From the NCBI GenBank assembly GCA_029866215.1, contig JARWZU010000088.1, forward strand, positions 1 to 64,000: a DNA stretch of 64,000 nt. The letters are read 5' to 3'. Made by a program: the position numbers and the translations under genes. This DNA comes from Akkermansiaceae bacterium (GTDB lineage Bacteria; Verrucomicrobiota; Verrucomicrobiia; Verrucomicrobiales; Akkermansiaceae). Positions within the stretch are counted from its first letter, which is position 1, and every line of letters starts with the position of its first letter. The notes beneath the pieces are model-generated. The model searched no databases. It worked only from the letters and a program-made list of their open reading frames with translations, and was not told the origin of the DNA. This document shows positions 10,918 to 24,567 of the stretch, piece after piece.

Positions 10918-11817
10918 TTAATCTTCGTCTTCGTCAAGAGAAACCGATTCAGAATCTTCATCATCGGCATATTTCCCTCCACTGAAGCCAACTTCGTTGG
11001 ACGGACGGAAGCGGCGGTTGCCATATTCTTTCTCCCATTGGGCCTGACATTCGACCGTCAAACGGGCAAATGGGATGGCCTCGAGACGGGTCTGAGGGAT
11101 CTTCCGCGACGAGATTTCACAGATCCCGTAGGATCCCGATTGAATGCGGCGAAGCGCTTGCTCGATCTCGTAAAGCGCATCTTGCTCCTTGGCCAACACG
11201 GAGAGTGCGAAATCACGGTCATAGGCGTCACTGCCGGCATCGCCTTGGTGCTGGCCACTGCCAGACGCCTCAGAGCCTTCCGGAGCGTTGCGAATGGTAT
11301 CACGCGCCATCCCTGAGACGGCATCGACGAGATCATCACGAAGATCGAGCAGGCGCTGACGTTGCTTTTGCACAAATGCTGGGCTGTGCGTGCCATTGCT
11401 GCCCGCAGCGACCTGCCCACCCGTGACGGGTGCGACGGGTTTCGGCGGTACGAAGGGTGGCTTCACTGGAGCGGGAGGCGCCGGGAAATCGACGACCGAC
11501 GAGCGAGGCTTGACCACTGGCTTTTTCTCTACGACCACCACTTTCGGCGCAACATCAACCTTCTCCGCTGGCTTGGCTTGCTTGACCTCGGGCTTCGCAA
11601 CCTTAGGCGCCGGCGTTGGCTTCGACGGCTTCAACGGCTTAGCAGCAGGCTTCGACGGCTTAGCGGCAGGCTTAGCGGCAGGCTTTGCGGCAGGCTTGGC
11701 GGCAGGCTTGGCGGCAGGCTTCGACGGCTTAGCAGCAGGCTTGGTGACAGGCTTGGTGACAGGCTTGGCCTTCACCTGAGGTGAGGCGGACTTGGATGTG
11801 GTTTTTTTCGCGGCCAT
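10918..11817 (-). CDS. TraR/DksA-family protein with Lys/Pro/Ala-rich N-terminal tail
   Basis: The 299-residue protein has two parts. Residues 1 to about 145 are low complexity, built on repeats of [16 protein letters not shown], and are probably disordered. The C-terminal part is a DksA/TraR domain: a coiled-coil starting near [19 protein letters not shown], then [20 protein letters not shown] and the zinc-finger region [20 protein letters not shown] ending in VECQAQWE. Classical DksA has four zinc cysteines; here only two remain (CEIS and ECQ), so zinc binding is doubtful. The domain typically acts in the RNA polymerase secondary channel. An acidic tail ends the protein. The gene leads the rpmG-rpsR group. 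Confidence 0.8.
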
Positions 11818-19454: not shown

Positions 19455-20702
19455 ATGCCGACCCTTCAGGAAACGATCCATCAAATGGGCAAACAGGCTC
19501 GCGCAGCTTCGTACGCCCTCGCACAGTTGTCGGCCGACGAAAAGAACGAGATTCTCCGCGCCATGGCGGCATCGATCCGCCGTCATGCCGCGAAGGTGTT
19601 GGAGGCAAACGCCCTCGACCTCGCCGCTGGCAAGGAAAAGGGGCTCTCCGCCGCGATGCTCGACCGGTTGATGCTTAATGATGCCCGCATCGAAGCGATG
19701 GCCGCAGGGATCGACCAAGTCGCCACCTTGCCCGATCCGGTCGGCCAAACGCTGGATGCATGGGAACGCCCGAACGGCATCCGAATCGAACAAATCCGTG
19801 TGCCCATCGGAACCATCGGCATCATTTACGAAAGCCGCCCCAACGTCACCGCCGACGCTGCAGTGCTTTGCTTCAAAACCGGCAACGCAACCATCCTCCG
19901 AGGCGGCAGCGAGGCGATCCACTCGAACCTCGCCATCGCCGAGGCGCTCGGCAATGCCGGGGCACCCGCCCACGCCATCCAACTCATTCCATTCACCGAC
20001 CGCGAGAGCGTGGCGGTCCTCGCCGGCATGGACAAGTGGCTCGATCTCATCATCCCTCGCGGCGGCAAGGGCCTCATCGAAACGGTGGTGTCACTCGCTC
20101 GCATGCCGGTCATCAAACACTACGACGGCATCTGCCACCTCTTCGTCGATGCCGCAGCCGACCTAGAAATGGCCGTCTCGCTGACCCTCAATTCCAAAAC
20201 CCAAAAATGCGGCGTCTGCAACGCGCTCGAAACTCTGCTCGTCCACCGCGAGGTCGCCGCCGAGTTTCTTCCCAAGGTCGCCACCGCCCTCCGCTCGAAA
20301 GGTGTGGAACTCCGCGGCTGCGAACGAAGCCTCGCCATCCTCCCCGACCTCATTCCCGCCACCACCGATGACTGGGAAACGGAATACCTCGACCTGATTC
20401 TCTCGATCAAGGTGGTCGATTCACTCGATGCCGCCGTGGCTCACATCAATGCCCATGGTTCACACCACACGGACGTGATCGTCACCCACGACGAGGCAAA
20501 CGCCGAGCAGTTCCTCCGCAGCGTGGATTCTGCCTGTGTCTTTCACAACGTCTCCACCCGCTTCGCGGATGGCGGTGAATTCGGGTTCGGTGCAGAAATC
20601 GGCATCTCCACCGACAAGCTCCACGCCCGCGGCCCCATGGGGCTGCGCGAACTCACGAGCTACCAATACCGCGTCCGCGGTAACGGGCAAATCCGAGGCT
20701 AA
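19455..20702 (+). CDS. proA: Gamma-glutamyl phosphate reductase
   Basis: ProA reduces gamma-glutamyl phosphate to glutamate semialdehyde in proline synthesis. The 415 residues fit. Visible are MGKQARAASYALAQLSADEK, RVPIGTIGIIYESRPNVTAD, TGNATILRGGSEAIHSN and the catalytic cysteine in SKTQKCGVCNALETLLVH, then GAEIGISTDKLHARGPMGLR near the end. The ATG at 19455 was preferred; a GTG at 19416 would add 13 residues without family support. It follows icd closely, perhaps by read-through. No proB is seen. Confidence 0.95.
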   Translation: MPTLQETIHQMGKQARAASYALAQLSADEKNEILRAMAASIRRHAAKVLEANALDLAAGKEKGLSAAMLDRLMLNDARIEAMAAGIDQVATLPDPVGQTLDAWERPNGIRIEQIRVPIGTIGIIYESRPNVTADAAVLCFKTGNATILRGGSEAIHSNLAIAEALGNAGAPAHAIQLIPFTDRESVAVLAGMDKWLDLIIPRGGKGLIETVVSLARMPVIKHYDGICHLFVDAAADLEMAVSLTLNSKTQKCGVCNALETLLVHREVAAEFLPKVATALRSKGVELRGCERSLAILPDLIPATTDDWETEYLDLILSIKVVDSLDAAVAHINAHGSHHTDVIVTHDEANAEQFLRSVDSACVFHNVSTRFADGGEFGFGAEIGISTDKLHARGPMGLRELTSYQYRVRGNGQIRG

Positions 20703-21462
20703 AACGGCACGCTTGCCCCTCTAATCCGCAGTGAAGAGTGATGACGAGGCGCACCAGTGCGGATCTTGTCGGCCTTTGAAGACGAAAACGAGCGCACCAT
20801 CGGTTCACCCATCGGGTGAACATGAGCCGAATTTCAAATTCCTTCCTGCGGGCGAGCGATTCCAACTCCTTTGCAGCGACGAGGCACTCACTCGGTGACC
20901 GCCTCGATGTCGGGGTTCCCGTGCGCCATGCACGCCCCCCGTTACGCGATGTAAAACAACTTTTACATCATGTTCGGGTGCTTGTGCGCGATGTAAAGTT
21001 GCTCGTACATCATGTTCGGGTGCTTGTGCGCGATGTAAAGTTGCCCGTACATCATGTTCGGGTGCTTGTGCGCGATGTAAAATTGCCCGTACATCATGTT
21101 CGGGTGCTTGTGCACGATGTACGGGCACCCGTGCACGATGTACGGGAACCCGTGCACAACGGAACAGAACCCCGGTGCGTGAGACATGGAAAGGCACTTC
21201 CGCCGCCACACATGAATTGATAATCAATGAGTTGCACCTGAAACGGGTTTGGAATCATCTCGCCGAACCTCCGCTGCCAGTGCCCGTGCCTGACCCATCC
21301 GCATCCCAACTGCGGATTCTAGGATGGAATCGCCTAGGCCCACACGGCGACCCACTCAGCACCAGAGCCCAAGCGAATTGAGGACCGAAGCAAATCGCCC
21401 CGGTCCCCATCCCATCACTCGGCCCCATCAGCGTGAACCCGAGCGCATATCATCAATTCAAA
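20703..21462. other. Gene-poor region around a 21-bp repeat array
   Basis: These 760 bases separate proA from the convergent secreted-protein gene. They contain a 19-base palindrome GTTCACCCATCGGGTGAAC at 20803-20821 and the 21-bp array at 20903-21154. Open frames over the array run on both strands (20816-21220 on plus, 20805-21227 on minus) because the unit length is divisible by three; neither has a family I recognise. Beyond 21230 nothing but intergenic sequence is seen. Confidence 0.6.
20903..21154 (+). repeat. Array of twelve 21-bp units
   Basis: Twelve units of 21 bases follow each other without gaps. Four are exact copies of type B (CATCATGTTCGGGTGCTTGT plus G). They alternate with four A units (CGCGATGTAAAGTTGCCCGT plus A, with base changes). 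Two C units (CACGATGTACGGGCACCCGT plus G) close the array and two degenerate units open it. In the plus frame each unit codes for seven residues, such as RDVKLPV, HHVRVLV and HDVREPV. The C units can fold into hairpins, GTGCACG pairing with CGTGCAC. A 134-residue frame beginning at 20816 spans the array; whether it is translated is open. Confidence 0.85.
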
Positions 21463-24400
21463 TCAAGGAGTCACGACCACCTTCAAGCGAGCGAAGATTT
21501 TTCCTCGGCCAGTTGGCAAAGTGTAACTGATAAATCCGGCCACACTGGAATCAGCTGTCACTGGTTGCCATGTAACTAGATCACTTGAGGTTTCAATCGT
21601 CCCCGCTGCGTTTGTAGCAGTCGCGCTCTTGGGATAGGTAATTTTCCCTCCAACAACCTGCGGCGTTGCCGTCATCGAACTACCCGTCGCTCCCATGAAA
21701 TATTCCACACCGTTGCTCACCCCATCGCCATCGTAATCGAGACCTGAGGCTTGGCCGCCGGCGTTGGTGGCCGCCCAGGTCGCGTAGCTGTTGCCCGTTG
21801 GAACCGCACTGATCGCCACCTGGCCGATACCGATTTGTTTAGAAGCCCCTTGTTCAGGTGACCGAAGTCCTCGGTCCGATATCCATGTGATGGTAAATTC
21901 ATTACCAGCACCAATAGAGAGACCCGTCACTTTGGTTGACTTCACTGCATCAACCTTACCTAACGTGTCATAGGCAAGCGCCTCGACGGCAGCGCCCCCG
22001 TTGACTGCAACCGTCCAGACAGGAGAACGGCCTTCGGTAGTTCTCTCGACACGGCCGAGATAAGAGACGTCCAGAGACGTCAAGACCCCACCAGTAGCAT
22101 TGATCAAATGAAGTGTGACCGTAAGATTTCCGCTTGAGTTTGTGTGGCGGTAGCCTAAGACTCCTGTGGAATTTCCTGTGGAATTGCTGCCAAGGAAACC
22201 GCCCGTGGTTGCAGATTGTCCCCAAGATCCTGCATAAACCTGCAGAGGTGGCGAAGCGTCCGACAAGGCCGTCCATCCGGCTGGCATGTTGGTGATACCA
22301 GCGGTTGAATTACCCGTGATACCATTAAACGCTTGGGTATAGTTCCCCGTAAAACTGGGATAGGTAGCCAGCGTCGTAAAAGTACCCACCGCCGTGTAGC
22401 TGGTTCCAGATGCATTGGTCGCGTAGGCACAAACTGAGTAATTTGTGCCTGGCGTCAGTCCCGTCAGCGTCGAGCTAAAGGCTCCAACGTCAGGAGAGCC
22501 AACCTCGACCATAGACACTCCACTGCCACCGAGCTGTGGTGCCGCATTCACTGCGGTTGCCGCATAGACAAATCCCGATCCTGTAAGGGTTTGACCACCA
22601 GTTGAAACAATTTCCGCGCGCACAGTCGCTGAGAGCGATCCCATTGTAGCGACTGGCACATTCAAAGTCGTTGCCGTGGGAGCGAATACGCTATTTCCCA
22701 CGCTAACCGACACATCAGAAATACCGATCTGACGTGCGGAACCAAAACCTGAGGGATAGGAGGATGCCCAGACGATTTGGAAAGTTGAACCATTGGGAAT
22801 GGATAATCCACCAATCGACGCGTTGCGCTGGGCATTGTCACGATCCGCAGTGGAATATCCAAGAGCAGTCACCGTTACTCCCCCAACAGTTACGGTAAAT
22901 ACAGGGATCCGCGTGTTTTCGGGGACAGTCATTCGTCCCTTGTAAGCGACTGTGAGGTCGTTGATCTCTGCACCCGTTGTATTTCGGAGGGTCAGAATCT
23001 GATTCAGTGGCGCATTGTTTGTCAGGGTCAAACTTGTGTGATGATAGCCAAAGACGCTGGCGTTGCCCCTGAATCCTCCATCACTAACGGAGCCCCAGTT
23101 ACCAACATAAGCTGACAGGTAAGCCGCAGGCCCAGAAGCGGACCAGCCTTGCGGCAGCGTTGCAGCCGAGACATAGCTCGAAAATGTCTGAGTGTATGGC
23201 GTACTCGTCAGAGCGGGAACATCAACGGTGGTAAATGTCCAAGTGGTAGTATCGGAGCTAGGAATCCCCACATAGCGATTTCCAGAACTGTCCTCGAACG
23301 CGTCACCTGCGATTTGCACATAGTAGGTGGTGCCATAATCTAAAGCAGCAGTAAGTGGGATTGTTACAGTCGAGTTATCAACTACGAAACCAGGGGTGAA
23401 ATAGTCTGCCACGATTGTTTCGACCACCGCTCCTCCCGCTTTTTTGAGGGTAATATTGCCACCAATAGGACTGATCGCCTCGCTAAACGTTAGCCTCAAG
23501 CTGGAGGTTGGAACTGCATTGCTACCCAAGGGGCTGTAAGTGACGACTGTAGGTGCGGTGGTGTCAGGTGAATCAGTCGTGAACGCCCAAGCGGTAGTAG
23601 TCAGAATGCCACCAAAGGAATTGCCTGCTGGATCTTTAACGGCTCCAGCGGGAACCAGAACATAATAGCTGGTGTTGTAGTTTAGATCTACGGTGGGGTC
23701 GATGGTCAAAGTGCTACCTGAAACAGTGATCGAAGCAGGAATCGTTGAACCATCAGAGGATTTCTTGAGTTCAATCGCGCCCGTACCCGCCTGCACCGGC
23801 TCGCTGAAGCTGGCAACTAAGTTATCTGAAATTGAAACTTGAGTCGCACTATTGGTAGGTACCAGTGTTGAGATGCTGGGCGGGATCGTGTCTAAACTAG
23901 GATTGATGGTACCCGTAAGTTTGATGTCATCGAGCCGAATTGCGGTGGTTCCCGATTTGACGAATCGAATTTTAAGTCCATTAATTTGTGCTCCTACCGG
24001 TAACGACAATGTTTTGGCTAAATACCAGCCTGTGGTTGCGTTCGCGGTTTCATTGAAAAGGGCACTTGATTGGTTTGCAATCAAGGTCCAAGACGCACCA
24101 TTCCAATAGTCAACGGAAAAGGTCGCTGAAGCAGAAGCTGACTCTTTCCGGTAACCATACGAAAGCTGAAGCGTGTTGTATGTCGAAGCATTAATATTCT
24201 CAATACCTAGGCCATAGGTGGCATTTGAACTGGTTAGCCAAACATTTCCACCGCCTGATGCACCTGTATAGGAGGTTGAATTGGATGATGACCGCACATC
24301 GCCTGGGTTTGTTGCATCCCCTTGGCTAAAGGTTAGGTTTCCCTTATTCTGGAAAGTGGCAGGAGCAGTGCCGAGCGTATAGTTTCCAAAAGAGATAGTT

Positions 24401-24567
24401 CCAGCCGGAGTGCCGAAATTTTCCGAGAAAATTGTCGTCTGCGCTCCCGCATCGAAGACTGACGCCGCGGAGACGAGCGCCATTGCAAGCAGTGCCCGGC
24501 CCCAGCGTAGAGGTTGCGAGATCCCATGGGGACGTTTTGGTTCGGAGTTGCAAATCATGGTTTTCAT
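21463..24567 (-). CDS. Large secreted protein with bacterial Ig-like (SbsA/Big_5 type) domains
   Basis: The 1034-residue protein has a signal peptide (RALLAMALVSAASVFDAGAQ) and then an N-terminal beta-sandwich region of about 200 residues. Two Ig-like domains of the SbsA N-terminal type follow: PPSISTLVPTNSATQVSISD and APTVVTYSPLGSNAVPTSSL, each with NYNTSYYVLVPAGAVKD-like or DYGTTYYVQIAGDAFED. Two related modules of about 200 residues with FTVTVGGVTVTALGYSTADR and WTVAVNGGAAVEALAYDTLG come next. The end has DYDGDGVSNGVEYFMGATGS, a Ca-binding thrombospondin-3-like piece common at the end of verrucomicrobial secreted proteins, then a FN3/Ig-type module. No PEP-CTERM anchor is visible. Binding partner unknown. 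Confidence 0.8.
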   Translation of the reverse strand: MKTMICNSEPKRPHGISQPLRWGRALLAMALVSAASVFDAGAQTTIFSENFGTPAGTISFGNYTLGTAPATFQNKGNLTFSQGDATNPGDVRSSSNSTSYTGASGGGNVWLTSSNATYGLGIENINASTYNTLQLSYGYRKESASASATFSVDYWNGASWTLIANQSSALFNETANATTGWYLAKTLSLPVGAQINGLKIRFVKSGTTAIRLDDIKLTGTINPSLDTIPPSISTLVPTNSATQVSISDNLVASFSEPVQAGTGAIELKKSSDGSTIPASITVSGSTLTIDPTVDLNYNTSYYVLVPAGAVKDPAGNSFGGILTTTAWAFTTDSPDTTAPTVVTYSPLGSNAVPTSSLRLTFSEAISPIGGNITLKKAGGAVVETIVADYFTPGFVVDNSTVTIPLTAALDYGTTYYVQIAGDAFEDSSGNRYVGIPSSDTTTWTFTTVDVPALTSTPYTQTFSSYVSAATLPQGWSASGPAAYLSAYVGNWGSVSDGGFRGNASVFGYHHTSLTLTNNAPLNQILTLRNTTGAEINDLTVAYKGRMTVPENTRIPVFTVTVGGVTVTALGYSTADRDNAQRNASIGGLSIPNGSTFQIVWASSYPSGFGSARQIGISDVSVSVGNSVFAPTATTLNVPVATMGSLSATVRAEIVSTGGQTLTGSGFVYAATAVNAAPQLGGSGVSMVEVGSPDVGAFSSTLTGLTPGTNYSVCAYATNASGTSYTAVGTFTTLATYPSFTGNYTQAFNGITGNSTAGITNMPAGWTALSDASPPLQVYAGSWGQSATTGGFLGSNSTGNSTGVLGYRHTNSSGNLTVTLHLINATGGVLTSLDVSYLGRVERTTEGRSPVWTVAVNGGAAVEALAYDTLGKVDAVKSTKVTGLSIGAGNEFTITWISDRGLRSPEQGASKQIGIGQVAISAVPTGNSYATWAATNAGGQASGLDYDGDGVSNGVEYFMGATGSSMTATPQVVGGKITYPKSATATNAAGTIETSSDLVTWQPVTADSSVAGFISYTLPTGRGKIFARLKVVVTP

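Follow-up and report, generated by a model that had tools for sequence, protein, structure and literature searches.

Organization of the array locus

The window (the whole stretch of DNA analyzed here, 64,000 nt from an Akkermansiaceae bacterium) contains twelve consecutive 21-bp units at 20906–21157, in the spacer downstream of proA. A leftwards-transcribed gene (21463–24567, minus strand) converges on proA from the other side and encodes a 1034-aa protein with two Big_5 bacterial Ig-like stretches. Elsewhere in the window, a 299-aa frame (10918–11817, minus strand) has a repetitive lysine/alanine/proline-rich N-terminus and contains DNA repeats at 11618–11769; its C-terminal part looks DksA/TraR-like.

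An earlier note on this DNA, made from the letters alone, had placed a twelve-unit array at 20903–21154; this is the same array in a different phase, and it is real. TRF reports it with a period of 42 (97% matches, score 295) and with a period of 21 (61% matches, score 110), the self-identity is 0.78 at lag 42 and 0.56 at lag 21, and in 1000 shuffled controls the best value at lags 10–59 never exceeded 0.38. The higher-order unit is 42 or 43 bp. The predicted alternating order followed by two C units is borne out, with two divergent units preceding the series A B A B A B A B. The description of units as exact in four copies holds for a 15-base core of the B unit, found in all four, and not for the full B unit CATGTTCGGGTGCTTGTGCGC, which is exact in three copies and one base off in the fourth. 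The array is the middle of a larger element, which extends beyond it by 188 bp to the left and by 166 bp to the right and is organized as follows.

20718–21323, plus strand: whole element, probably IS1380-derived and non-autonomous, with the array inside; 606 bp, ends located, near full-length homologues
20718–20732, plus strand: left terminal inverted repeat CCTCTAATCCGCAGT, shared with the intact G053 IS1380 element
20718–20893, plus strand: left arm, a decayed 5' portion of an IS1380-family transposase gene; 74% identity to L168 over 176 bp
20906–21157, plus strand: array; two divergent units, then four A/B pairs, then two C units
20948–20969, plus strand: palindrome in the first A unit plus one base, GATGTAAAA-CAAC-TTTTACATC, 9-bp stem, read from the sequence
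21158–21306, plus strand: right filler, common to other copies at about 81% identity
21307–21323, plus strand: right terminal inverted repeat CAACTGCGGATTCTAGG; last 28 bases 96% identical to the G053 IS1380 end

Relationship to IS1380 elements

The left arm of the window element has a 54% protein match to a transposase piece in another genome of the genus (L074, G014), which itself matches the IS1380 transposase model NF033539 (E 8e-11) and PF13701 (E 3e-4), in both cases below cut-off. Used as a query against 73 genus genomes, this fragment found matches in 22, including a 509-codon open frame in G053 with 82% identity. The G053 element (G053:C57, L168) is intact, about 1.6 kb long, with ends CCTAGAATCCGCAGTTGGGA and CCTCTAATCCGCAGTTGGGA (each read inward), and its 502-aa protein passes the cut-offs of both models (200 bits against a cut-off of 180 for NF033539). 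One L168 end is 74% identical to the left 176 bp of the window element and the other is 89–96% identical to its last 28–35 bp, and other copies in the same genome as the window match L168 over up to ~280 bp, transposase start included. Because the left arm and both ends match an intact IS1380 element, we conclude that the array-bearing element is IS1380-derived. The two elements share their termini and an initial 176 bp in which the transposase gene starts, but the window element lacks most of that gene and has the filler and array instead. With the ends of an autonomous element, a parental remnant, multiple copies and a length below 1 kb, it is classed on its sequence as a putative IS1380-derived MITE.

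No match to PF13701 was found in the window's own genome at E 0.001, nor any mobilizing enzyme in its 97% complete assembly. A 142-aa open stretch on contig C56 is the remnant of an IS1380-like gene, and given this remnant and the completeness of the assembly, an active transposase could be missing from the assembly.

Copies in the genome

Searching the genome (3.03 Mb in 88 contigs) with the array region gives 19 matches, which fall at 16 places; four of these places (C12, C50, C54 and C25) are at contig ends. There are also arm-only copies and a two-unit trace of the array on C49. A count of this kind had been suggested in the earlier note. Alignment of 26 loci to the full-length copy C65 shows a common architecture of up to 745 bp, consisting of left arm, middle stretch, array, right filler and right end. 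C65, C30, C38, C1, C36 and the window copy are near full length and the rest are truncated. At C72 the two arms are present without an array, and some loci have one arm only. Counted against a transposon are the array at C48:94k, which has no arms, and that at C4:176k, which has no right arm. Seven of twelve internal loci are flanked by converging genes, two by diverging genes and three by genes on the same strand, with gene setting called crudely from open frames of at least 130 codons.

The armless array on contig C48 (L017 3081–3261, G000, the window's own genome) runs in frame into an adjoining open stretch. By eye, this stretch looks like what is left of a RhuM-type gene, a reading that neither Pfam nor NCBIfam matches support.

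The insertion site in sister species

The closest of the 73 genus genomes by ProA identity (71 of which gave a match) are G063 (98%) and G071 (96%), with proA DNA identities to the window of 97.2% and 91.9% respectively. The element is absent from this site in both. In G063 the spacer downstream of proA joins directly to what lies on the right of the element in the window. With the element removed, the alignment shows a 9-base gap, 4 bases of which are assigned to the element, so that the window has 5 extra bases at the join, as many as a target duplication would leave. IS1380 elements generate target-site duplications of 4–5 bp. In G071 proA and the right spacer are 14 bp apart. IS1380-type arms are present elsewhere in G063, with no array match, and neither arms nor array match was found in G071, in a search that scored at most seven candidates per genome and that weak copies can escape. 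The suggestion in the earlier note that the array might be a mobile cassette is thus well supported, by its presence at 16 places, by the IS1380-type ends with a transposase remnant, and by the empty sites in the two closest species.

The C36 copy is flanked by ATGAT on both sides, and a related element in G016 has TTCAT on both sides (by eye). The flanks of the window copy, TTGCC and ATGGA, are unlike each other, and among the four copies in this genome with both ends located (window, C1, C65 and C36) a clean duplication is seen at C36 alone. Over stretches longer than 100 bp the window arms differ by 13–26% from every other copy found, with best identities of 81% (left) and 87% (right), and a 44-bp stretch of the element is identical to the contig-end copy C25. 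Arms this divergent do not fit a simple, recent jump of a copy present in this assembly. The window element is young by position, being absent in G063 and G071, and old by sequence; loss of the element in both sisters, or haplotype replacement, could possibly account for the empty sites.

In one of the G063 copies (L258 1–220, G063:C148) the sequence before the right arm seems to be duplicated, with ACCACCATGGATGCGGCGAGGGCGCC occurring twice, and letters similar to these follow the arm in L264 (G063:C205), near a contig end. The tandem repeat is suspected by eye, and TRF reported no repeat in this region of the G063 copies.

Coding potential of the array

The array is open on both strands, as had been pointed out, with a 134-aa frame on the plus strand (20816–21220) and frames of 140 and 82 aa on the minus strand, and no 21-bp unit in this genome has a stop in the heptad frame. 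Translation as a heptapeptide-repeat protein (D-V-x-x-x-V) was one of the readings proposed in the earlier note, which also called for a comparison of synonymous and non-synonymous change between units. A raw all-against-all comparison of units, found by motif, gives a low ratio in the heptad frame (0.29) and in one minus frame (0.35), hinting at coding, but we attribute this to a few old differences among the A, B and C units that are counted many times, and an event-based test does not bear it out. On a minimum spanning tree of the distinct 21-mers from this genome, 16 of 46 changes are synonymous in the heptad frame where 13.2 are expected (P 0.22), and the other five frames give P values from 0.175 to 0.997; the test was limited to the 37 of 44 tree edges that carry no more than two differences, and to units chosen by a motif fixing six positions. 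Among the differences in G016, 2 of 44 are synonymous in the heptad frame. Other species have 22-bp units, which cannot keep a frame (20- and 23-bp spacings also occur there and are few enough that they may be chance), and one-base indels disrupt the heptad frame in the copies C4:232k, C36 and C79 of this genome. The 134-aa frame has no Pfam match above cut-off (DUF948 is far below it) and no NCBIfam match, and no sigma-70 promoter-like or terminator-like sites were found in 20650–21520. In the event-based test the array shows no sign of purifying selection in any one reading frame, and we regard a translated product as extremely improbable. In annotation, neither of the long open frames (134 and 140 aa) ought to be listed as a gene.

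Divergence of the arrays and of their carrier

Copies of the element within the genome have mean pairwise identities of 77% in the left arm (n = 8), 79% in the middle stretch (n = 8) and 81% in the right filler (n = 13). With carrier arms that differ by about 20% between copies, the recent amplification of a two-unit cassette suggested in the earlier note is doubtful.

The arrays themselves are more alike. In seven contig-internal copies (42 ordered pairs, the contig-end copies C12, C50, C54 and C25 being left out and units being found by motif), 34.8% of units recur exactly in another copy, compared with simulated values of 2.1%, 15% and 38.7% for divergences of 19%, 10% and 5%, respectively. 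When twelve internal loci are taken, exact sharing is 24.7%, and with contig-end copies included (15 loci) it is 33.5%. The best-match unit identity between loci is 0.921 in the seven internal copies, and 0.891 within one array, compared with simulated identities of 0.841 at 19% divergence and 0.916 at 10%. The first two units are 96% identical between copies and the last two 87%, a difference that we set aside as the units are motif-selected. The arrays of this genome are about 5–10% diverged between copies, and the carrier arms about 20%.

Homogenization, constraint and misassembly each fit this contrast. The last of these, in which reads of different copies were merged during assembly, would concern the array–carrier contrast only and not the element. 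The assembly is a draft, a quarter of the 16 array copies (4/16) lie at contig ends, and arrays of ~200 bp exceed the typical short read, all of which make such merging conceivable. However, the excess of exact sharing over that expected at 19% divergence persists in the seven internal copies, and the arrays differ in unit order and in private variants; we therefore think an artefact of this type unlikely. The contrast is the single point that merits following, and if arrays do stay alike while their carrier decays, this genus would provide a compact bacterial case for measuring the homogenization of, or selection on, dispersed repeats.

Related arrays in the genus

A two-unit sequence-only model was searched against 260 genomes of the family with strict filters, and 18 match at E 0.01. 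Nine of these match strongly (E <1e-6) and all belong to this genus (G000, G001, G011, G013, G016, G023, G055, G060 and G067); the other nine have one match each (E 0.0015–0.0088), which we treat as chance. A pattern search of the 73 genus genomes matched eleven, the nine strong ones together with G022 and G069, which have one match each and, by eye, no array there. Relatives thus include eight other species of the genus with related arrays of 21–22 bp units, a survey that the earlier note had also recommended. In these eight species no array match lies alongside IS1380 arms, and in G055 the arm search found nothing.

A scan of a collection of 84,980 species, which may omit records near the window's own genome, returned 42 matching stretches. 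Five are arrays (L128, L136, L151, L160 and L161), labelled Akkermansiaceae, Akkermansia or Verrucomicrobiota and corresponding to G011, G023, G067 and G001 (two); four of the five stand out by periodicity and L160 was recognized by eye. The other 37 stretches do not stand out, and a wide spread beyond this lineage was accordingly rejected. An origin in a phage, plasmid or virus was also rejected, array-like DNA having no match in plasmid or phage records and the two viral contigs having a single match each and no visible array.

Several of the related arrays have features in common. A ~45-bp 'head' precedes the arrays in six species, and a search for the head pattern with at most three mismatches identifies twelve places in seven of the 73 genomes, all of them array-bearing; the reversed pattern, used as a control, matched none of the 73. 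No head match was found in G000 or G016. Three head places have no clear adjacent array (G067:C137, G067:C167 and G060:C405), so the head could also be part of another element that is dispersed by itself. At four loci (G001:C28, G011:C37, G013:C8 and G023:C142) the array adjoins what appears by eye to be the same small HTH gene.

Other arrangements were seen at individual loci. Two long, similar stretches of G067 (L269 and L274, on C137 and C167) contain the head without a clear array. In G060:C173 (L098 850–1500) two head-plus-array modules stand in a row; after them a diverged unit, GACGAACGGGAGTCCCTGCGC, is repeated at length beside an apparent DEAD-box helicase gene (by eye). G016:C71 (L101 1500–1930) contains a strongly diverged 21-bp array, with the unit CATGTCCGGGTGGTTTTTCAT three times in a row.

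These distributions raise the possibility, which we put forward tentatively and rate as rather unlikely, that the arrays are a genus-restricted satellite family with a 21-bp period (two helical turns) and constitute a genomic unit in their own right, with their own head in six of nine species and the same gene beside four. In the present genome such a family would have been captured by IS1380 and, as the transposon decays, its dispersed copies would be kept alike by recombination between loci or through selection on a protein that binds them. Links between satellites and transposons exist in eukaryotes, and a family of this type would be a bacterial counterpart of that interplay.

Folding and constraint

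The earlier note had also considered a structured non-coding element. Ordinary shuffles, which break the tandem repeat, give folding z-scores of -4.0 to -5.9, and we therefore used permutations that preserve tandem order. Against these, the window array scores -3.4 and -3.7 on its two strands, L011 -3.6 and -3.6, L017 -1.9 and -2.5, and the plus strands of the G067 and G016 arrays -5.4 and -3.0. In these five of nine arrays, at most 2 of 100 permutations reach the observed energy on at least one strand. Four of the six other-species arrays tested (G001, G013, G023 and G060) do not out-fold the same controls. RNAalifold finds no common pair in a cross-species alignment, and Rfam gives two miRNA models only, at 23.4 and 21.9 bits where the thresholds are 98 and 100. 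A conserved RNA or DNA hairpin was rejected for want of a consensus pair across species; the proposed structure stands as far as the window array out-folds its controls, fails in most of the other species' arrays, and is unproven.

A broader form of this idea is that the array is a selected DNA or RNA module, either a protein-binding site recurring every two helical turns, as in iteron- or centromere-like arrays, or a structured RNA, that is kept while its carrier decays and that the transposon merely spread. The lower divergence of the arrays, their occurrence in eight other species with none seen with IS1380 arms, the apparently common HTH gene beside four of them and the folding of the window array are all in keeping with this, and changes are unevenly distributed along the unit (67 changes, P 0.03, with units cut by fixed steps). 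However, the positions spared here do not coincide with the ones that other species conserve (Spearman 0.04, P 0.86), a mismatch that makes constraint less convincing. The absence of a cross-species pair, the four arrays that fold no better than controls, and the restriction of strong arrays to 9 of 260 family genomes under strict filters, with none in either of the closest sisters, also argue against it, and we consider a selected module quite improbable.

A model for the origin of the element

Very probably, the array is a non-coding minisatellite forming the core of a non-autonomous IS1380-derived element. We suggest that an IS1380 element with an internal deletion picked up a 21-bp array like those present in the genus, and that an IS1380 transposase, absent from among the genes found in this assembly, may have spread it in trans. 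Array length would then change by whole units through slippage or unequal recombination, and arrays at different loci would have stayed more alike than their carriers, most likely by recombination between arrays; no product or host function need be invoked. The feature is real and ordinary to mildly unusual, a minisatellite within a decayed IS1380-derived element.

Comparison with known systems

REP and REPIN elements are short hairpin-capable intergenic repeats with RAYT (Y1) transposases. The window element resembles them in its hairpin-capable repeats between genes, and there are three Y1 transposase matches in its genome, but its ends and left arm are those of IS1380 and not of a Y1 system; a Y1/REP-RAYT origin was rejected for this reason. 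Among the titles of the matches listed in a search of the open-licence literature, there was no array-bearing IS1380-derived MITE and no such repeat in Verrucomicrobiota.

The closest parallels are in Porphyromonas, as described in the accessible portions of Klein et al. 2015 (PMC4596501). MITE464/PgRS of P. gingivalis is a MITE with 41-nt internal tandem repeats, comparable to the 42 or 43 bp here; unlike the window element, it has ends like those of the IS5 group and flanking segments that are themselves repetitive (PMC4596501, same portions). BrickBuilt is a 23-nt minisatellite in a MITE with IS5-type ends, reported in P. gingivalis and P. gulae, with 19 copies in one genome that are intergenic and mostly lack one or both ends (Klein et al. 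2015, as far as that text was accessible). Like the window element, it has a short-unit array between a non-repetitive leader and tail with inverted ends, and as in the window element family its copies are multiple and intergenic, many of them missing ends and with inconsistent target-site duplications (PMC4596501, accessible text). The window element is not a member of BrickBuilt, having a 21-nt unit in place of one of 23 nt, and IS1380-type ends with a transposase remnant where the available text of PMC4596501 gives BrickBuilt IS5-type ends (GAGACCTTTGCA and near variants) and no remnant. That paper makes no use of 'homogen-' or 'concerted'. A 2024 review of prokaryotic MITEs names BrickBuilt, and a word search of it gives no occurrence of IS1380, tandem or Verrucomicrobi (PMC10969869).

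The window element is mostly an ordinary minisatellite-bearing MITE, to which the present analysis adds a named parent family and an empty site in sister species. Two features go beyond BrickBuilt. One is the contrast in divergence between arrays and arms; the other is that eight other species have related arrays, none of which was seen within an element of this type, where BrickBuilt is described from two species in the accessible text of PMC4596501.
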